A stretch of DNA of 6,896 nt from Planctomycetota bacterium (GTDB lineage: Bacteria > Planctomycetota > PUPC01 > JACPCR01). Positions within the stretch are counted from its first letter, which is position 1. Every line of letters begins with the position of its first letter. The DNA is taken from assembly GCA_030740295.1 (NCBI GenBank), contig JASLXP010000293.1:1-6896 (forward strand), in the 5' to 3' direction. Position numbers and translations under genes: made by a program. A model generated the notes under the pieces. That model was not told the DNA's origin and ran no database searches. It worked only from the letters and a program-made list of their open reading frames with translations. Positions 1-6,896 of this stretch are shown here, one piece after another.

Positions 1-372
1 TTCAAGGGCTTCTACATCGCGCTTGGCTCGGCCATGTTCTCTCTTCTGGCCTTCTACATTGCGACCGCCGCGTACCGAGCGTTCCGGCTGCAATCAGGCG
101 AATCCTTTCTTCTGATGCTGGCCGCGCTGCTGGTCATGCTCGGCCAGATCCCGCCGGGCGTTGCTGCGGCTGATTGGGTGTTGAGGACGATTGGTTTCGA
201 GTCTCTCAGCATTACACAGATTCGTCTGTGGATTCTGCAACAGGTAAACACAGCGGCGTTCAGGGGTATCGCCCTCGGCAGCTCCATCGCCGGGCTCTCG
301 ATGGCCTGGCGAGTCTGGTGGTCGATGGAATCCAGCGCGCTGCTCGATGATGCGGACGAGGGAGGTGCGTGA
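1..372 (+). CDS. Conserved multi-pass membrane protein, C-terminal fragment (5' end outside window)
   Basis: The reading frame is open from base 1, so the ATG at 34 is probably internal and only the last 123 residues are visible. The fragment has a hydrophobic segment at about residues 3-24, followed by a basic turn (AAYRAFR). A second lies at about 35-58, and a shorter amphipathic one at about 86-104 leads into an acidic cytoplasm-like tail (DDADEGG). I do not recognise a named family. The segment 'AMFSLLAFYIATAAYRAFR' and the final block around 'AAFRGIALG' look like a conserved uncharacterised bacterial membrane family I have seen beside similar genes; that is recollection, not a search. 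The stop overlaps the start of the next gene (TGATG), so the two are almost certainly co-transcribed and coupled. The 5' part could carry a further domain that cannot be seen here. Confidence 0.8.
   Translation, partial: FKGFYIALGSAMFSLLAFYIATAAYRAFRLQSGESFLLMLAALLVMLGQIPPGVAAADWVLRTIGFESLSITQIRLWILQQVNTAAFRGIALGSSIAGLSMAWRVWWSMESSALLDDADEGGA
361..365 (+). promoter_or_regulatory. Ribosome binding site for the anchored exported-domain gene
   Basis: GGAGG lies six bases before the ATG at 372 and inside the end of the preceding gene. It favours ATG 372 over the in-frame GTG at 369, which would leave only three bases of spacing. It also explains how translation re-initiates at the TGATG overlap. 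Confidence 0.75.
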
Positions 373-1298
373 TGGAGCATCCGGAGAACAAAGGCTTCTA
401 CGAATTCCTCCTCAGCATCGACCGTCGCGTGGTCTACGTGCTCGTGCTTATCGCGCTGATCGTGCCCTTGCTGGTAGAAAAGGGAATGCAGCCGGCGAAA
501 ATGACGACCGCTCAGATGGCCTACGACGCAGTCGAAAAGCTGCCCACCGATACCGGCAAGATGGTCTGGATCGCGATGGATTGGGGTCCGGCGACCCAGG
601 CCGAGAACATGCCGCAGACCTCGGTGTTCATGGAACATCTGATGCGCCGCAAGATCCTTTTCTGCACCTATTCGATTTCGTTTTCATCCGAGCCCTTCAT
701 GAAGTCCGTCCCGAACGAAGTGGCGAACAGTATGAACAAGAAGAATGAAGAGTCGGGCGACCCGTACCGATACGAGTACGGCAAAGACTGGGTCAATATC
801 GGCTTCCGTCCGGCCGCAGTGCTCTTTGTGCGCGGGCTCGGCAAAACGGAGGACGTGCGTGAGTACCTGAGCGTGGATGCCCGCGGCACGCCGATGACCG
901 AGATCCCCTGCATGAAGAACATCAAGACGATCGAAGATTTCATCATGCTGGCGGAGTTCACCGGCTGGGTCGGCGCGTTCAACATCTGGGTGCAGTTTTT
1001 CCAGACCAAAGATTACAAGCCCATCTTCGTCCATGGGTGTACCTCCATCACTATTCCCGAGGCATTCATCTACCTCGATTCAAAGCAGATTCACGGGCTC
1101 TTCGAAGGCGTGGCCGGAGCGGCCTATTATTCGAAGCTGATCAAGGGCGATGAATTCGATCCGGTGAACAATCCCGACCTGGCGACTAAGTTCATGATGA
1201 GTCTGTCCATGGCGCACATTCTCATCTTCTTCTTCATCCTGGTCGGCAATATAGGGCTCTGGTGGGGCAAATTAGCGGAGAAGGGAGGCCCGTCATGA
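372..1298 (+). CDS. Uncharacterised membrane-anchored protein with a large exported central domain
   Basis: This 308-residue protein has no recognised name or function. A short basic N-terminus (IDRR, 17-19) precedes a membrane helix at about residues 20-36. A soluble domain of about 235 residues follows, and a second helix at about 275-298 precedes a lysine-containing tail (GKLAEKGG). Charge distribution predicts both ends in the cytoplasm and the central domain outside the membrane. That domain looks like an alpha/beta fold, with a strand running into 'WIAMDWGP' near residues 66-73, then 'GKDWVNIGFRP' (137-147), 'GTPMTEIPCMKNIK' (172-185) and a GVAGAAYYSKLI block (246-257). It resembles, from memory, a widespread hypothetical family found with similar membrane genes. 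ATG 372 is chosen for its spacing to GGAGG and its overlap with the previous stop. The stop overlaps the next gene by four bases. A ligand-sensing or solute-handling role is possible but not shown. Confidence 0.85.
   Translation: MEHPENKGFYEFLLSIDRRVVYVLVLIALIVPLLVEKGMQPAKMTTAQMAYDAVEKLPTDTGKMVWIAMDWGPATQAENMPQTSVFMEHLMRRKILFCTYSISFSSEPFMKSVPNEVANSMNKKNEESGDPYRYEYGKDWVNIGFRPAAVLFVRGLGKTEDVREYLSVDARGTPMTEIPCMKNIKTIEDFIMLAEFTGWVGAFNIWVQFFQTKDYKPIFVHGCTSITIPEAFIYLDSKQIHGLFEGVAGAAYYSKLIKGDEFDPVNNPDLATKFMMSLSMAHILIFFFILVGNIGLWWGKLAEKGGPS
1281..1288 (+). promoter_or_regulatory. Ribosome binding site for the six-helix membrane protein gene
   Basis: AAGGGAGG ends six bases before the ATG at 1295, inside the end of the upstream gene. 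It decides the start against the in-frame GTG at 1262, which would add eleven residues with a hydrophilic, glycine-rich character and has no such site at the right distance. Confidence 0.8.
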
Positions 1299-2008
1299 CC
1301 GTCGAATGGTGGACCATCTTCTTCGGTGGGATTTCGACCCTCGCGATCTACTCTTTCCTTTACAAAGAGAATCCGTTCTATCGTGTGTTTGAGCACATGT
1401 ACATCGGCATCGCGACCGGGCTGGGACTGGTCATCTCGCTGGAGCGTTTCATCTGGCCACAGCTCCTGGCAAAGATCTTCCACGCGTCGCCACAGGTCTA
1501 CGCAACGCCCCCGCAGCTCGTTGCGCAGGGCGCGCCGCTGACAAGCACCGTGCCATACGAGCCGCTGTACCTGCTCTACCTGATCCCGATGGCCTTCGGT
1601 CTCGGCTACTACACCATCTACACCAAGCGTTACGCCTGGGTCAGCCGCATCGTCATCAGCTTCGCTCTCGGCTATGGAGGCGGCCTCGCCTTCAAAGGTT
1701 TCTTCGCCGAATACATCCCGCAGATCGTGAGCTCCTTCAAGCCGCTCTATGTGCCCGGCGATTTTTGGACGAGTTTCAACAACACCATCTTCGTGTTCAC
1801 CCTTGTCTGCGTGATGATTTATTTCTTCTTCAGCTTCGAGCACGACAAGCCCGGCATCAAACAAGCGTCCACGGCCGGACGCTGGCTGATGATGATTTCC
1901 TTTGGCGCATTCTTCGGCGCAACGATCATGGCAAGGATGTCACTGCTGATTGAACGTCTGCAGTTTTTTATCGAGGACTGGCTTCCTAATTTTAGCGTTC
2001 TTTTCTGA
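1295..2008 (+). CDS. Uncharacterised polytopic (about six-helix) membrane protein
   Basis: This 237-residue protein is mostly hydrophobic. Likely membrane segments are about residues 5-22, 34-54, 90-109, 115-138, 163-180 and 196-213. A Pro/Gln/Ala-rich loop at about 60-88 lies between the second and third. Two blocks look conserved and functional: 'ENPFYRVFEHMYIGIATG' (25-42), which puts charged and aromatic residues at a membrane entry, and the C-terminal stretch from FSFEH (179-183) through GRWLMMISFGAFFGATIMAR (195-214) to LLIERLQFF (217-225). The small-residue face in the last helix would suit tight helix packing in an oligomer. I recall related unnamed proteins in other environmental bacteria but cannot give a family name. 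The ATGA overlap with the preceding gene implies coupled translation and probably a joint complex. No transporter or enzyme signature was identified. Confidence 0.85.
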   Translation: MTVEWWTIFFGGISTLAIYSFLYKENPFYRVFEHMYIGIATGLGLVISLERFIWPQLLAKIFHASPQVYATPPQLVAQGAPLTSTVPYEPLYLLYLIPMAFGLGYYTIYTKRYAWVSRIVISFALGYGGGLAFKGFFAEYIPQIVSSFKPLYVPGDFWTSFNNTIFVFTLVCVMIYFFFSFEHDKPGIKQASTAGRWLMMISFGAFFGATIMARMSLLIERLQFFIEDWLPNFSVLF

Positions 2009-2040
2009 TGCAGAGCGGAGAGCCGCTTCTGCTGTGGCAG

Positions 2041-2100
2041 GACAGGCATCTTGCCTGTAACCGGCGGGGCGTGCCGCAAATGACAGCCATCTTGCCTGTC
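2041..2100 (+). repeat. Two tandem copies of a dispersed palindromic repeat (GACAGGC-ATCTT-GCCTGTC type)
   Basis: Copy 1 (2041-2058) has the perfect six-base inverted arms ACAGGC and GCCTGT around ATCTT. Copy 2 (2082-2100) has seven-base arms GACAGCC and GCCTGTC around the same ATCTT, with one mismatch. The copies are in the same orientation, 41 bases apart. Between them GCGG (2064-2067) and CCGC (2074-2077) can form a third small hairpin. On the reverse strand the copies translate as 'TGKMPVLP' or 'YRQDACPA', peptide fragments I recognise from spurious short ORFs in many environmental genomes. That marks this as a dispersed intergenic element, not coding sequence. Its function is unknown; RNA structure or transcript processing between the membrane genes and the ATPase gene is possible. 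Confidence 0.75.
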
Positions 2101-2116
2101 GTTCAGAAATACTCAC

Positions 2117-3940
2117 ATGCCAGAACAATCCACAAACGCCGATTCACTCCGCGCCGTCCTCGCCACCGATTGCGGCTCGACAACCACGAAGGCTGTCTTC
2201 TTTGAAAAGACACCCGAAGGCTGGCGGCAGACCTGGCGCGGCGAAGCACCGACAACCGTCGAGAAACCCTTCGAAGACGTCACCATCGGCGCTCGCAATG
2301 CCATCAACGAGGTCGAGGAGCTTTCCGGACGCCGAATTCTGTCTGATGAAGACGGTGACGGTCCGCTTAAATTCCAGATGCCCGCGGACGATGAAAACGG
2401 TATCGACATGTACGTCTCCACCTCATCTGCCGGCGGCGGCCTGCAGATGGCCGTCACCGGAGTTGTGCGCTCCATGACCGCAGAATCCGCCGAACGGGCC
2501 GCGCTCGGGGCAGGGGCGATCGTGATGGATGTGGTGTCTATCGATGATGGCCGCAAGCCGCACGAAAGAGTCGCACGCATCCGGCATCTGAGACCGGACA
2601 TTGTGCTGCTGTCCGGCGGTATCGACGGCGGCACCAAATCCCACGTCCTCGAGCTCGCAGAGACAATGCTTTCCGCGGATCCTCGACCCAGGTTCGGTGC
2701 GACGCTGAACCTTCCGGTGATCTACGCGGGGAACAACGAGATCCAGGACGAAGTCGGCGATCTACTGGGCGAGCATTTTTCGTATCAGTCCGTCGAAAAT
2801 ATTCGCCCGACTCTGGAGGAAGAGAACCTCGGCCCCGCGCGGGAAGCCATTCACGAGGTCTTCCTTTCGCACGTGATGTCTCACGCGCCCGGTTACGACA
2901 AGCTGCTCGAATCCACGTCCATCGAAATCATGCCGACACCCCACGCAGTCGGCCTGATGACTGAAGCCGCCGCAAGGAAGCGCGGGTTCGATGTGATTGC
3001 CGTCGATATCGGCGGCGCGACGACCGATGTATTTTCTGTCTGCGGCGGCACGTTCAACCGGACAGTGAGCGCGAACCTGGGCATGAGCTATTCGATCTCG
3101 AACGTTCTGCTCGAGGCGGGCATCGACAACATCTGCCGCTGGCTGCCGTTCGCGGAAGATCCGTATCGCATCAAGGAATCCCTGCGGAACAAGATGATCA
3201 GGCCGACCACGATTCCTGAAGAGCTTTCCGATCTCCTGGTCGAACAGGCGGTCGCCAGAGAAGCGCTCCGTCTCGCGTTCGAACATCACAAGATGCTGGC
3301 GGTCGGCCTCAAGGGCGTTCAGCGCGAGCGCACCATCGCCGAAGTCTTCACGCAGGAAGGGGCCGGCGAATCACTCATCGATATGCGCAAGGTCGGGATG
3401 ATCATCGGCTCGGGCGGAGTGCTTTCCCACGCGCCGGATCGCAAGGCCGCGGCGTTGATGCTGCTGGATGCGTTCGAGCCCGAGGGCATCACCGAGCTCT
3501 GCGTGGACAGCATTTTCATGATGCCGCACCTGGGGGTGTTCAGTCAGGCCCACGAAGAAGGCGCCCTCGAGATTTTCGAGCGCGATTGCCTTGTCTTTCT
3601 CGGCACGGCCATCTGCCCGAGCGCGAAAAAAATCAAACCGGGCCAACCGCTCATGGAATACGCCATCGATGGCGGCCCAACTGAACCGCTTTTCGCCGGC
3701 GAGCTGTTAAGGCATGAACTGGGCGCCGGTGAGGAGGCTGAAATCCGTCTGACCCCGTCACACCGAAAGGTGGACGTTGGGGATGGTCCGGGTCGTTCCA
3801 TTACCCGGCGGATCAAGGGCGGCCACGCGGGCGTGATCCTGGATGGACGAGGGCGGCCCCTGGTTCATTCCAGTGAGGAGAGTGCGAGGGCCGACCTGAA
3901 TCGAAGGTGCATGGAAATCTTCGAGTTGGAGCTGCCTTAA
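2117..3940 (+). CDS. glmL: MutL/GlmL-family (glutamate mutase L) ASKHA ATPase, long form
   Basis: This 607-residue protein belongs to the glutamate mutase L family (not the DNA mismatch repair MutL). The ATPase core is complete. The phosphate-1 loop is DCGSTTTK (18-25), a family block SSAGGGLQMAVTG starts at 103, and SGGIDGGT is at 166-173. The phosphate-2 loop is DIGGATTD (297-304), and the adenosine motif region is IIGSGGVL (429-436). An extra beta-rich C-terminal part follows, with KVDVGDGPG (551-559) and GHAGVILDGRGRP (569-581); the clostridial proteins I recall are about 460 residues. In clostridia the gene lies between the two glutamate mutase subunit genes and is thought to help maintain that B12 enzyme, though its job is unproven. 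No mutase is present here. The gene follows three membrane protein genes on the same strand, so energising or maturing that complex is an inference worth testing. The ATG has no clear Shine-Dalgarno, but residues just after it match where the family begins. Confidence 0.9.
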   Translation: MPEQSTNADSLRAVLATDCGSTTTKAVFFEKTPEGWRQTWRGEAPTTVEKPFEDVTIGARNAINEVEELSGRRILSDEDGDGPLKFQMPADDENGIDMYVSTSSAGGGLQMAVTGVVRSMTAESAERAALGAGAIVMDVVSIDDGRKPHERVARIRHLRPDIVLLSGGIDGGTKSHVLELAETMLSADPRPRFGATLNLPVIYAGNNEIQDEVGDLLGEHFSYQSVENIRPTLEEENLGPAREAIHEVFLSHVMSHAPGYDKLLESTSIEIMPTPHAVGLMTEAAARKRGFDVIAVDIGGATTDVFSVCGGTFNRTVSANLGMSYSISNVLLEAGIDNICRWLPFAEDPYRIKESLRNKMIRPTTIPEELSDLLVEQAVAREALRLAFEHHKMLAVGLKGVQRERTIAEVFTQEGAGESLIDMRKVGMIIGSGGVLSHAPDRKAAALMLLDAFEPEGITELCVDSIFMMPHLGVFSQAHEEGALEIFERDCLVFLGTAICPSAKKIKPGQPLMEYAIDGGPTEPLFAGELLRHELGAGEEAEIRLTPSHRKVDVGDGPGRSITRRIKGGHAGVILDGRGRPLVHSSEESARADLNRRCMEIFELELP

Positions 3941-4058: not shown

Positions 4059-5228
4059 CTACCCCTCTACTGCATATTTCTCGATTGCCTCCTCATTCAA
4101 CTCGATGCCCAGTCCCGGTCGGTCGGGGAGTCTGATGACGCCGTCCTCAATCACGAGCGGGTCATTCACCAGTTCGCGACGAAGCTCCGAATCACACATT
4201 TCCGCAGGCAGGAATTCAATGAACGGACAATTGGGAATTGCCGCTGCCATATGTGCCGAGGCCGCGATACCGATGCCGGTCTTCCAGCAGTGCGGCACGA
4301 CCAGCCGTCCGCGATCCTGGGCCATATGGCAGACGCGCATGGCTTCGGTGAGCCCGCCAACCCGGCCCACATCCGGCTGCACCACCTGGACGCCCGCATC
4401 CAGGAGTTCCTTGAATTCGAAACGAGTGTTCTGCCATTCGCCGATCGCAATGCGCATGGGGGCTTCACGAGCGAGAATGGCGTAGCCTTCGAGATTGTCT
4501 ACCTGCAGCGGCGTCTCGAGAAAGAAGATGTCGAGGTCGGCCCAGTTGTTGACGGTTCGCAGGCAGGAGTCTGCATCGAACCAGCGATACTGAACATCCA
4601 CCATCATGGCGAAATCAGGGCCGACCGCCTCGCGGCAGGCGCGAACGATCTCGGTGGCTTGTTCGTCGGTACCCTTCAGGCCTGCGTGCCGATAAGGGCC
4701 GTCCAGAGTGCATTCCATCTTGCCGGCCTGATAGCCCATATCCCTGGCGCGCCCGGCCCATTCGACAAGAGACGCGCCGTATTCTTCCACCGTATCACCA
4801 TAGGGCTGCAGGGAAGCGTAGGGAACAATGTGGTCTTTGTGCGCACCTCCCAGCAGTTTGTAACAGGGCAGTCCGAGCGCCTTGCCCTTGATATCCCAGA
4901 GCGCCATGTCGATGGCGCCCATCGCGCTGATGACCGCGCCCCGTCGCCCCGTCATACAGGTGAACGTGTACATCTTTTCCCAGAGCGCGCTGGTATCGAA
5001 AGGGTCCTGGCCGATGAGAAGCTCTTTCATGCACATGTCCATGCTGTGTCCGCCCGGCGATTCGATCGCGGCTCTGGCCACCCACGGTCCGGTATCCGTT
5101 TCGCCGATACCCGTGATGCCGTGGTCCGTGTGGACGACCACCACGATGTCGTCCTGCGAAGAAGAGGTAGCGTCTTCACGGACATCGGGGATGACAAGTA
5201 TGTGACATTCGATCTCGGTAATCTTCAA
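4059..5228 (-). CDS. Enolase superfamily, mandelate racemase/muconate lactonizing-type enzyme (probable acid-sugar dehydratase)
   Basis: The 389-residue protein has the usual family length, with an N-terminal capping domain (about 1-125), a TIM barrel (about 130-360) and a C-terminal return to the cap. Magnesium ligands are D211 (VDVQYRW), E238 (FLETPL) and E264 (IGEW). The acid-base dyad is D286 (QPDVGRVGG) and H313 (VPHCW), with the same 27-residue spacing as D270/H297 of mandelate racemase, and E338 (FIEF) sits where its Glu317 would be. The position of the usual K-x-K bases reads K170-M-E172, and a 10-residue expansion follows before D211. Such enzymes abstract a proton alpha to a carboxylate; with this dyad, dehydration of a sugar acid is more likely than cycloisomerisation. 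The exact substrate is unknown. The start is TTG with AGGAG seven bases upstream, giving MKITEIEC, a typical beginning. It is divergent to the dioxygenase gene. Confidence 0.92.
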   Translation of the reverse strand: MKITEIECHILVIPDVREDATSSSQDDIVVVVHTDHGITGIGETDTGPWVARAAIESPGGHSMDMCMKELLIGQDPFDTSALWEKMYTFTCMTGRRGAVISAMGAIDMALWDIKGKALGLPCYKLLGGAHKDHIVPYASLQPYGDTVEEYGASLVEWAGRARDMGYQAGKMECTLDGPYRHAGLKGTDEQATEIVRACREAVGPDFAMMVDVQYRWFDADSCLRTVNNWADLDIFFLETPLQVDNLEGYAILAREAPMRIAIGEWQNTRFEFKELLDAGVQVVQPDVGRVGGLTEAMRVCHMAQDRGRLVVPHCWKTGIGIAASAHMAAAIPNCPFIEFLPAEMCDSELRRELVNDPLVIEDGVIRLPDRPGLGIELNEEAIEKYAVEG

Positions 5229-5336: not shown

Positions 5337-6077
5337 GTGAATCCGGAAAAACTTGTCAGCGAATTTGAATCTGAAGGCTTTGTCCTGGTCGAAAATCTGA
5401 TGACTGCTGAACAGCTTGCGTCGGCTCAGGCTGGCGTAGAGTGGGCCATGTCGCAGCAACCGGAACGTTACAGATGGATACGCCAGCGCACCTATGAGTG
5501 GTTCGCAACCTATCCGGTTTTCGTCGAGCTGATGGAACACCCGCTGGTGCTTGAGACGGCAGAAAGAATTCTGGGTTCGAACTTTCACCTGATCGCGGCA
5601 CAGTGTTCCCGAAATACGAGAGACGACCCATACGCACCCGGCGCAATGAAGATCCATCAGGACAGAGTGTTCTTTCCGGGCGAGGAGACGACGGAAACCA
5701 TCCCTCCTCATCACAATGGATTCTCCGCCATGTGGTATGTGCAGGATACGCCGCCGGCGATGGGCCCGACGGAGCTCATCCCTCGTTCGCATGCTTCCGA
5801 TGAGCGTTACACGGAGGACGCGTTGGATGAGGTCGACCTGTTTCGGCGCCGCATTCCAGCGGGCAGTCTGCTTCTGTTCTTTCACCGCACCTGGCATCGC
5901 GGCGCATTCAATCAGACAGACACCCCGCGCGACCTCATCACCAACGCCTACGCAGTAAGGGCAATCGAAAAAGTGCAACTGACGACCCCGCTGGCCGACG
6001 AGGATGACCGCTACCTGTCCTGTGAGGATCTTCTGGCAGTTTCAAGCGACGCAATGCGGTTGATGTTAAGAGCCTGA
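5337..6077 (+). CDS. Phytanoyl-CoA dioxygenase (PhyH)-family Fe(II)/2-oxoglutarate oxygenase
   Basis: The 246-residue protein has the full PhyH pattern. The N-terminal 'FESEGFVLVENLM' (10-22) is the typical opening strand. Iron is bound by H107-x-D109 (KIHQD) and the distal H187 (TWHRGAFN). R198 (TPRDL), eleven residues after the histidine, is positioned to bind 2-oxoglutarate. The block GPTELIPRSH (143-152) is the usual strand before the active-site lid. Such enzymes hydroxylate a small organic substrate using O2 and 2-oxoglutarate; the family name does not imply a CoA substrate, and bacterial members are highly varied. There is no signal peptide, so it is cytoplasmic. The start is GTG with no good Shine-Dalgarno, and the frame has no other standard start between an upstream stop at 5256 and here. 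Its divergent enolase neighbour suggests a shared catabolic pathway, which is an inference. Confidence 0.9.
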   Translation: MNPEKLVSEFESEGFVLVENLMTAEQLASAQAGVEWAMSQQPERYRWIRQRTYEWFATYPVFVELMEHPLVLETAERILGSNFHLIAAQCSRNTRDDPYAPGAMKIHQDRVFFPGEETTETIPPHHNGFSAMWYVQDTPPAMGPTELIPRSHASDERYTEDALDEVDLFRRRIPAGSLLLFFHRTWHRGAFNQTDTPRDLITNAYAVRAIEKVQLTTPLADEDDRYLSCEDLLAVSSDAMRLMLRA

Positions 6078-6166
6078 GTCGAGGCCAGCCTTCGGTCGCC
6101 ATGCCGCCGTGACGCCGACCCACCCGGGAACCGGCCCGGCGGGATCACCACCACTCCATCACTTCA

Positions 6167-6236
6167 CCATCCACCATTCACCATTCACCATTCACCATTC
6201 ACCATTCACCATTCACCATTCGCCATTCACCATCAA
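6167..6236. repeat. Heptanucleotide tandem array, (CCATTCA) x 10
   Basis: Ten contiguous 7-base units are present. Seven are exactly CCATTCA (starting at 6174, 6181, 6188, 6195, 6202, 6209 and 6223). Three are variants: CCATCCA at 6167, CCATTCG at 6216 and CCATCAA at 6230. The preceding bases (6156-6166) look like a decayed unit. On the - strand the unit is TGAATGG; because seven is not a multiple of three, TGA and ATG recur in all three frames. The array starts eight bases after the stop of the - strand membrane gene. Slipped-strand copy-number change is expected of such arrays; no function is assigned. Confidence 0.9.
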
Positions 6237-6244
6237 CCTCTTCC

Positions 6245-6896
6245 TCACCCGTCCTTCACATGCTTCCCATTCGTGCTCGTGAGCGCGCCGAAAGGGTCCT
6301 CGCGTTCCGGTGGCTCGGTCTCGCCGCCGACGAAGAATTCTATCGCCGCCAGGAGCACTAGAACGCCTGCGCCCATGAGCGACGCACAAGGGATGACGAG
6401 CTCGGTGTAGAGGAGGTTCATCAGGACCTCCTGCTGATAGAAGCCAAAGAAAGTGGCGACTCCACATCCCCACGCCAGGGCGAACCATTCCTGCGCAGTG
6501 CGAATGGCGTACATCCGTGATGCGCGCCAGAACATTCCGAAAGTGCCTCCGACCAGGGGCCCGAAACAGACGGCCAGAATGAGAGACTCCTGCGACTGAA
6601 GATCTTTGAAATAGAATGTCGCACCCAGGAAGAAGACCAGACCCAATGGAAGCGCCAGCTTGATGTAACTCGAAAACAGGGCAATCGCTTCCTCGAGACC
6701 GCTGTCCATGGGGATGTTCCGCTCTTCTCTTGTCAAGAGAACCAGGGCTATCAGTCCGCCGATGAGCGCGCCGGGGTATGGGTTGTCTTTGGAGATTCCG
6801 AAGATGTAGAGCGTCGACACTCGGCACCCGAACTGGCCGACTATCGCGCCAGCAGTAACCAGAATCATGACCGTTGCACAACGCCCGCCTGAGAAA
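6245..6896 (-). CDS. Unrecognised multi-pass membrane protein, N-terminus beyond the right edge
   Basis: The frame stays open from the ATG at 6868 to the window edge, adding FSGGRCATV. That ATG falls inside a hydrophobic helix and has no Shine-Dalgarno, so the gene probably starts outside the window; if the ATG is the start the protein is 207 residues. Counting from that ATG, hydrophobic segments are at about 1-24, 32-46, 60-85, 96-113, 125-143 and 156-180. A charged hydrophilic tail rich in Glu, Pro and Lys ends the protein. Notable motifs are GQFGCRVSTLYIFG (11-24), YPGALIGG (31-38) and FGPLVGGTFGMFWR (102-115), all small-residue rich. GQFGCR slightly recalls the prolipoprotein transferase Lgt, but the order and spacing of motifs do not fit it. 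The family and function are unknown. The sequence ends just before a 7-base tandem array. Confidence 0.7.
   Translation of the reverse strand, partial: FSGGRCATVMILVTAGAIVGQFGCRVSTLYIFGISKDNPYPGALIGGLIALVLLTREERNIPMDSGLEEAIALFSSYIKLALPLGLVFFLGATFYFKDLQSQESLILAVCFGPLVGGTFGMFWRASRMYAIRTAQEWFALAWGCGVATFFGFYQQEVLMNLLYTELVIPCASLMGAGVLVLLAAIEFFVGGETEPPEREDPFGALTSTNGKHVKDG

Follow-up and report, generated by a model that had tools for sequence, protein, structure and literature searches.

Evidence for a conserved seven-gene module of membrane proteins and a MutL-family ATPase, a possible remodeller of an envelope complex

Introduction

ASKHA ATPases combine ATPase activity with a two-lobe, actin-like fold. 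Among the described proteins closest to the one considered here are GlmL/MutL (NF040745) and a GlmL-related ornithine degradation protein (NF040744), which have in common with it PF13941 and ATP motifs of the same kind. GlmL is reported to occur together with the E subunit of glutamate mutase (PMC4682846). In the locus described here, a MutL-family ATPase instead follows a trio of membrane protein genes. The window, by which we mean the whole 6,896-nucleotide stretch analysed (Planctomycetota bacterium, contig JASLXP010000293.1), contains four of the seven genes of what is, on sequence comparison, almost certainly a conserved module: F5, DUF6754, ORF1, ORF2, ORF3, MutL and F6. No description of this module, and no paper naming the DUF6754 family, was found in the literature searched, which included only a minority of subscription papers and no bioRxiv preprints. 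The one paper matching the family and GlmL names concerns a thiamin enzyme (PMC4389238).

Genes of the Window

The features of the window are collected in Table 1. The original prediction was of three membrane genes joined stop to start and an ATPase gene downstream on the same strand, and both parts are confirmed. The ORF2 start codon (ATG, 372-374) overlaps the ORF1 stop by 1 nt (TGATG), and the ORF3 start codon (ATG, 1295-1297) overlaps the ORF2 stop (1296-1298) by 4 nt (ATGA). The PF13941 frame begins 108 bp after ORF3, so no overlap couples MutL to the trio. The exact 17-mer of an intergenic repeat is found in none of five relatives, and the idea that this lineage is already known to carry the repeat was dropped.

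Table 1. Features of the window and the residues they cover.
Feature	Positions	Strand	Residues	Remarks
ORF1, C-terminal part only (partial)	1..372	+		open from base 1; stop 370-372
ORF2, two membrane anchors flanking a Rossmann-like domain (predicted extracytoplasmic)	372..1298	+
ORF2 Rossmann-like domain	513..1145	+	48-258	structure model
ORF2 motif HGCTSITIPEA	1032..1064	+	221-231	highly conserved in window-type subfamily
ORF3, predicted 6-TM protein, N-terminus outside	1295..2008	+
ORF3 motif ENPFYRVFEH	1367..1396	+	25-34
MutL-family ATPase, long module-type subfamily, intact	2117..3940	+		607 aa
MutL putative phosphate-1 motif DCGSTTTK	2168..2191	+	18-25	alignment of 26 sequences
MutL putative phosphate-2 motif DIGGATTD	3005..3028	+	297-304	invariant in 26 sequences
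MutL putative adenosine-site motif GSGGVLSHAP	3407..3436	+	431-440	alignment of 26 sequences
MutL C-terminal extension past the PF13941 match	3590..3937	+	492-607

The predicted topologies also agree with the expectation of an exported domain on two anchors accompanied by two polytopic proteins. By hydropathy and charge, ORF2 has hydrophobic helices at both its N-terminus and C-terminus, which flank a domain predicted to lie outside the cytoplasm, and the ORF1 and ORF3 families are each predicted to have six transmembrane segments. Full-length relatives of ORF1, such as one of 374 aa (L001:8877-10001), are predicted six-TM proteins whose TM3 and TM4 are separated by a variable insert on the extracytoplasmic side, and members of the family range from 210 to 896 aa through variable outer insertions. 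An outer insertion is also present in ORF3 at two loci (L003 and L004).

None of ORF1, ORF2 and ORF3 matches a Pfam family over its cut-off. Homologues are plentiful at E<=1e-3 (344 for ORF2 and 1005 for ORF3), and since the set also recurs across genomes and phyla, the genes of the window are not together by chance adjacency. In an alignment of 31 ORF2 sequences, H221, G222, C223, T224, S225 and P229 of the tabulated motif are invariant; when diverged Planctomycetota forms are added, T224 is the only one of the six to stay so. The ORF3 motif has E25, N26, R30, F32, E33 and H34 invariant in 30 sequences. The ORF2 structure model (pLDDT 91) was considered as a specific dehydrogenase, and Foldseek returned no match at E<=0.001, the structural neighbours being generic Rossmann proteins. 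ORF2 and DUF6754 were also considered as paralogous domains, and hhalign found no homology between them. Sequence search of the PDB gave only weak matches, the best E being 0.008 for F6, 0.08 for ORF1 and 0.15 for ORF2, and nothing for DUF6754, MutL (E<=1) or ORF3.

The ATPase and Its Relation to GlmL

The window MutL scores 411.7 bits against PF13941 (cut-off 27, profile 1-450) and, by alignment, carries the ASKHA ATPase motif set. In 26 sequences, every residue of DCGSTTTK is invariant except C19, which is kept in at least 90%, as is every residue of GSGGVLSHAP except L436. We take DCGSTTTK, DIGGATTD and GSGGVLSHAP to be the phosphate-1, phosphate-2 and adenosine motifs of ASKHA ATPases, respectively. 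The best NCBIfam match is GlmL itself (NF040745), at 231.1 bits against a cut-off of 475; NF040744 gives 215 against 600. In a tree that includes five long end branches, a branch (97/89) sets the module MutLs apart, and the GlmL-type group (100/100) forms a separate clade. The module label in this tree covers MutLs beside the trio and the first-type MutLs from DUF6754-positive Planctomycetota genomes, while three divergent MutLs, whose genomes likewise have DUF6754, were labelled separately by their neighbourhoods and scores. Judged by this tree and by its length, module MutL is a long subfamily distinct from the GlmL-type MutLs. A match to PF13941 by itself, then, does not identify a mutase accessory protein.

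Partner Proteins

In relatives, the recurring gene order is F5-DUF6754-ORF1-ORF2-ORF3-MutL-F6. F5, a small protein, has no family assignment. The partner called F3 belongs fully to DUF6754 (PF20539), a family to which no function has been assigned; the two proteins scanned score 286.3 and 298.2 bits, the cut-off being 27, and the conserved domain of F3 is predicted to lie on the cytoplasmic side. DUF6754 proteins are also present in WOR-3, TA06 and Latescibacteria. Some of these carry the name fibronectin type III in their source records; in the four scanned, Pfam finds only DUF6754 at E<=0.01, and the name is given no weight here.

F6, like MutL, is predicted to be soluble, and its model (pLDDT 89) has a barrel-sandwich, an RraA-like swivel and a KOW part. 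Thermotoga NusG (2.8e-5) is the one match that Foldseek returns at E<=0.001, and no protein with the three-part combination appears among the matches listed. RnfC_N scores below its own cut-off wherever a score is available, and F6 is probably not an Rnf/Nqr subunit, the likeness being limited to the barrel-sandwich part. An alignment of 27 F6 sequences contains no lysine or histidine that is invariant or nearly so; therefore, a covalent carrier of biotin, lipoyl or phosphohistidine is unlikely.

Two further families, F7 and F8, lie near the trio in 18 and 17 of 48 related loci, and their scanned representatives match no family over cut-off. Around 27 Planctomycetota and related loci, each neighbouring family is found at three loci at most, one such family being a small membrane protein that adjoins F5 (L105, L128 and L129). 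The neighbours were therefore set aside as a lead on function. A defence system was also considered, and the seven proteins compared with the PADLOC models of known or candidate anti-phage systems gave no match at E<=0.01.

Conservation and Linkage across Genomes

MutL is present in 41 of the 48 related loci; in four, the contig ends first, and in three, MutL is on another contig. DUF6754 is found in 41, F5 in 39 and F6 in 36, the absences nearly all being contig ends. The ORFs of the extra loci were called mechanically, so that starts may be too early and some gaps are negative. Of 23 trio genomes, none has glutamate mutase E (Met_asp_mut_E) above its cut-off, and one has two sub-threshold matches. 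Phylum group names here are those of the record titles.

Among 119 Planctomycetota genomes, ORF2 and DUF6754 are found in the same 31, a match that the ORF2 profile, partly built from these genomes, may inflate, although this cannot explain the absences elsewhere. MutL exceeds its cut-off in 28 of the 31, and its co-occurrence with DUF6754 has a Fisher p of 1.4e-20 when phylogeny is ignored. The gene order differs among Planctomycetota, a second order being F5-MutL-F6-DUF6754-ORF1-ORF2-ORF3, and there are also split loci. Of the 28 genomes, 12 do not have MutL within 8 kb of DUF6754 on the same strand: three carry the two at distant sites of a single contig (G045, G104 and G135), and nine carry them on separate contigs. 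The closest relative of the window (G001) has its MutL on another contig. Genomes that have just one of the two families are excluded from these linkage counts, as are a few further DUF6754 fragments (G030 C390, G042 C330, G128 C39 and a second C99 piece); the omissions do not alter which genomes count as linked.

In a second phylum, MutL is present in 42 of 43 genomes and is together with DUF6754 in 40; in 31 of these 40, the two share a contig and strand and are separated by 2340-2904 nt. The module there is single-copy apart from split fragments. The module is kept in possibly incomplete assemblies down to 1.2-1.3 Mb (G023 and G022). DUF6754 and ORF2 occur without MutL in three Planctomycetota genomes (G057, G061 and G070), and DUF6754 without MutL in one of the second phylum (G265); MutL occurs without DUF6754 in three and two, respectively (G032, G060 and G112; G259 and G281). 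There is no F6 after MutL in the window, beside the MutL of G001 (L099), or in L108, L118 and L045. Divergent pairs of MutL and an F6-like gene also exist as second copies away from the membrane genes (L119 and L120).

Judged from homology searches, the seven genes co-occur in genomes of at least three phyla. The original prediction of a four-gene system thus stands in that its genes recur as a set, but the recurring set has seven members. Its argument from distant lineages holds in that other phyla carry the set; it is weaker than the record titles imply, since at least 28 of the 38 genomes reached via trio loci are in one phylum. Two outcomes had been named beforehand as speaking against the prediction: that ATPase homologues outside the genus sit with mutase genes and not with these membrane genes, and that the trio usually occurs without the ATPase. 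Neither is what we see, because MutL lies with the trio in the loci counted above, mutase E exceeds its cut-off in none of the genomes searched, and MutL is present in most ORF2-positive Planctomycetota genomes and in 37 of the 38 reached via trio loci.

What the Module May Do

Co-occurrence and the gene overlaps suggest that the membrane proteins may form one stoichiometric complex, which MutL may energise. The best overall explanation, which we hold at a little under even confidence, is a module encoding membrane proteins and an ATPase that remodels them. The mechanism of remodelling is drawn by analogy and is more tentative. The module MutL would work like its relatives, the reactivases of B12 enzymes, with ATP binding and hydrolysis moving its two lobes. 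Acting via F6, it would reshape the side of the membrane complex formed by DUF6754, or return that side to its starting state, and this change would in turn alter the outer Rossmann domain of ORF2. On this view, the module would use ATP to remodel or gate an envelope complex and would not be an accessory of a mutase.

A different use of the ATP would be transport of a solute, lipid or polymer by the membrane proteins, with the ATPase powering each cycle and the outer Rossmann domain serving as the substrate receptor. Two predicted six-TM proteins with a receptor-like outer domain, and the conserved ATP motifs of MutL, would suit this, and varied cargo would suit the variable outer insertions of ORF1 and ORF3. 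However, the proteins scanned matched no transporter family of Pfam or NCBIfam above its cut-off, and the MutL and F6 genes can lie far from the membrane genes. We also know of no ASKHA protein that serves as a primary transport motor, and we consider transport unlikely. Relatives of MutL among the hydantoinases and acetone carboxylases act as kinases, and by analogy, MutL could be the kinase of a membrane enzyme, with the barrel-sandwich and swivel domains of F6 delivering an activated intermediate to the membrane proteins. The lack of a near-invariant lysine or histidine in the F6 alignment counts against this, and we think it improbable. The near-universal presence of MutL in the second phylum is what one would see in a stable neighbourhood of unrelated housekeeping genes, but there are two different gene orders, and that reading is largely contradicted because the patchy presence and absence in Planctomycetota is matched between genes even when they are unlinked; we give it very little credence. 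Finally, that MutL is an ordinary glutamate- or ornithine-mutase accessory adjoining unrelated membrane genes by chance, as its PF13941 membership and best NCBIfam match might imply, is scarcely credible and largely contradicted by its score under the GlmL cut-off, its separate clade, its co-occurrence with DUF6754 and ORF2, and the lack of any mutase E over cut-off in the 23 genomes, the genome-wide search having covered mutase E alone and not ornithine aminomutase.

Returning to the envelope remodeller, we propose, with some reserve, that it could represent a new class of ATP-driven envelope machine, present in several phyla and near-universal in one, in which an ASKHA ATPase and its adaptor F6 drive a four-protein membrane core and couple the inner DUF6754 domain to an outer Rossmann-like receptor. 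A system that is near-universal in one phylum and recurs in Planctomycetota, with no described function in the sources searched, points to something missing from the picture of the cell envelope. Its genes are present or absent together, which opens the system to a direct test by gene deletion in a planctomycete in culture.

Comparison with Known Systems

The module MutLs are about 600 aa with a C-terminal extension, whereas the GlmL and ornithine types are about 460 aa (447-475 aa in the nine compared). The neighbours differ too: the module MutLs adjoin membrane genes, whereas the GlmL-type MutLs whose neighbours were scanned by Pfam, four of the nine, all adjoin B12 proteins. The parts of F6 resemble, one by one, the N-terminal barrel-sandwich of NqrA/RnfC, the biotin/lipoyl domain, the RraA fold and the KOW domain of NusG/Spt5. 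MT0777 (1kjn) and the ACDS epsilon subunit (3cf4_G) also count among the closest known systems.

Genes of the Window

The window opens with four plus-strand genes, of which the first three (ORF1–ORF3) encode membrane proteins and the fourth is a MutL ATPase matching PF13941 at 411.7 bits. The original observation that the trio is coupled by stop–start overlaps holds: ORF1 and ORF2 share 1 base and ORF2 and ORF3 share 4 nt, with the ATPase on the same strand. ORF1–3 match no Pfam or NCBIfam family above cut-off, and the hydrophobic ORF at the far end matches no Pfam family above cut-off. F6, a protein introduced below, is absent between MutL and the window end. The exact 17-mer core of the intergenic repeat was not found in the genomes of 5 relatives.

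Features of the window
Feature	Position	Strand	Remarks
ORF1	stop 370-372	+	5' part cut off by window start
ORF2	starts at last base of ORF1 stop	+	
ORF3	start overlaps ORF2 end by 4 nt	+	
Two near-identical 18-nt palindrome-like repeats	2041-2058, 2082-2099		ORF3–MutL gap; GACAGGCATCTTGCCTGT
MutL-like gene	2117-3940	+	108 bp past ORF3
Enolase-superfamily (MR_MLE) gene	4059-5228	-	downstream of MutL
PhyH-family gene	5337-6077	+	downstream of MutL
Tandem TTCACCA heptamer array	6149-6239		separates PhyH gene from last membrane ORF
Hydrophobic membrane ORF	6245-6895	-	truncated by window end

A Seven-Gene Module in Relatives

Homologs at E ≤ 1e-3 numbered 344 for ORF2 and 1005 for ORF3. An ORF2-profile scan of genome contigs gave 48 loci, and the gene order across their neighborhoods is F5, DUF6754, ORF1, ORF2, ORF3, MutL and F6. 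F5 is a small protein (typically ~98 aa), DUF6754 is PF20539, and F6 (~374 aa) is predicted to contain barrel-sandwich, RraA-like swivel and KOW domains. The four-gene system proposed originally stands as to co-localization and falls short as to gene number, the 48 loci showing a set of seven. DUF6754 was found in 41 of them, the other 7 contigs beginning within ORF1 or ORF2, and F5 accompanies it in 39 of the 41. Seven loci are without MutL: in L007, L010, L020 and L048 the contig stops inside ORF2 or ORF3, while in L001, L002 and L044 space is available and MutL is on another contig of the same genomes. F6 accompanies MutL in 36 of 41 loci, the absences being 4 contig ends and L045; it lies 3.3 kb further downstream in L035, and the distance from ORF3 to MutL is 788 nt in L028. 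Since F5 and DUF6754 are upstream of ORF1 in L001, the nearest relative of the window, the window's contig probably carries them there as well.

Individual loci show further features. A PMT-family glycosyltransferase gene overlaps the ORF3 stop at MutL's usual place in L044 (5949-7652). The ORF3 proteins of L003 (1384-3318) and L004 (2676-4433) reach 585-644 aa through a large insertion in a loop predicted to be outside, and the 896-aa ORF1 of L010 (430-3120) also has an insertion in such a loop. F8 and F7, proteins that appear coiled-coil and envelope-bound, precede the module upstream of F5 in 17 and 18 of the 48 loci, respectively (e.g., L013, L014, L022).

Gene Orders and Co-Occurrence

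The first gene order is also found in the extra loci L105 and L138. A second, F5-MutL-F6-DUF6754-ORF1-ORF2-ORF3, occurs in L101, L103, L104, L106, L125, L126, L128, L136 and L137, where some genes were called as overlapping ORFs. The genes thus mostly form two units, F5-MutL-F6 and the DUF6754-ORF1-ORF2-ORF3 quartet. MutL is away from the quartet in the split loci L107/L108, L109/L110 and L134/L135; in G045, F6 adjoins DUF6754 and MutL stands alone (L117/L118). ORF2 is distant or on another contig in G103, G119 and G045. Joint presence, more than position, thus keeps the module genes together. Linkage varies even among close relatives, since the MutLs of the window and G001 are 90% identical and that of G001 is on a different contig from the trio. 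Four Planctomycetota loci show extra copies: L107 and L128 carry a duplicated quartet, and L124 and L125 repeat some of its genes.

Whole genomes were sampled from three phyla. Among 119 Planctomycetota genomes (the phylum of G001, named by record title), DUF6754 and ORF2 are each in 31, the identical 31. MutL is above cut-off in 31, of which 28 are in common with DUF6754, bearing out the expected co-occurrence of ATPase and membrane genes (Fisher p 1.4e-20, phylogeny ignored). G057, G061 and G070 have DUF6754 and ORF2 without MutL; MutL without DUF6754 is seen as fragments in G032 and G112 and, in G060, as a weak match of 102 bits. In 16 of these 28 genomes, MutL and DUF6754 share a contig and strand and are at most 8 kb apart; in the other 12, they are far apart on one contig (G045, G104, G135) or on different contigs (nine). 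In the phylum of G013 (43 genomes), MutL is in 42, DUF6754 in 41 and both in 40; in 31 of those 40 genomes the pair shares a contig and strand (gaps 2340-2904 nt), and in 9 it is split between contigs. Of the 38 genomes searched via the 48 loci, at least 28 come from this phylum, so fewer lineages are represented than the variety of record titles suggests.

Among 118 genomes from the phylum of G018 (Binatia according to its record title), 11 have MutL above cut-off; DUF6754 and F6 occur in 1 each, both times G018. Nine of the other 10 MutLs are full-length GlmL-type proteins (447-475 aa), related to mutase accessory proteins. The tenth, in G173, is a MutL fragment at a contig end preceded by an F5-like gene, the two together being at L133:5913-6743; neither DUF6754 nor F6 was found in the G173 assembly.

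DUF6754 itself has at least 8000 homologs, and the 120 matches listed include proteins named WOR-3, TA06 and Latescibacteria. Four longer DUF6754 proteins (P0249, P0257, P0275, P0332) are named fibronectin type III by their sources; Pfam finds DUF6754 only, and nothing in their ~100-residue N-terminal part.

Proposed Function and Comparison with Known Systems

Comparison establishes a recurring gene set, co-occurrence, a separate MutL clade and conserved ATP motifs; the topology and two folds of the module proteins are predicted. We propose that the module proteins would assemble as one complex, in which MutL would hydrolyze ATP and remodel the membrane proteins via F6. The weakest step is that MutL may act like the reactivases, an analogy from family membership. 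The module may instead be a transport motor or a phosphotransfer enzyme. Neither a description of the module nor a paper naming DUF6754 was found in the openly licensed papers searched; the module may be described elsewhere.

In a tree of 73 MutLs, the 61 module MutLs lie beyond one branch (97/89) and 9 GlmL-types beyond another (100/100). The 3 divergent MutLs (L119, L120, L123) are intermediate; these are second copies in DUF6754-carrying genomes, and 2 have a clear F6-like neighbor. The pairs of MutL and F6-like genes in L119 (6391-9332) and L120 (2001-5017) have no DUF6754 or ORF1–3 nearby, a possible sign that MutL-F6 also works with other partners.

Against the GlmL equivalog (cut-off 475) the window MutL scores only 231 bits, and against the ornithine-pathway GlmL-related model (cut-off 600) 215 bits. 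Of the 9 GlmL-types, 4 had their neighbors scanned; those of L113, L114 and L116 adjoin ornithine aminomutase proteins, and that of L112 a B12-binding protein. The glutamate mutase E family does not exceed its cut-off in any of 23 module genomes; G020 gives two sub-threshold matches. The ATPase accompanies the membrane genes (41 of 48 loci) without glutamate mutase E above cut-off in those 23 genomes, as anticipated, and it stands apart from ordinary mutase accessories. Beyond the labels MutL and DUF6754, no known system was found that fits the module; specialists may yet assign it to a familiar kind of system.
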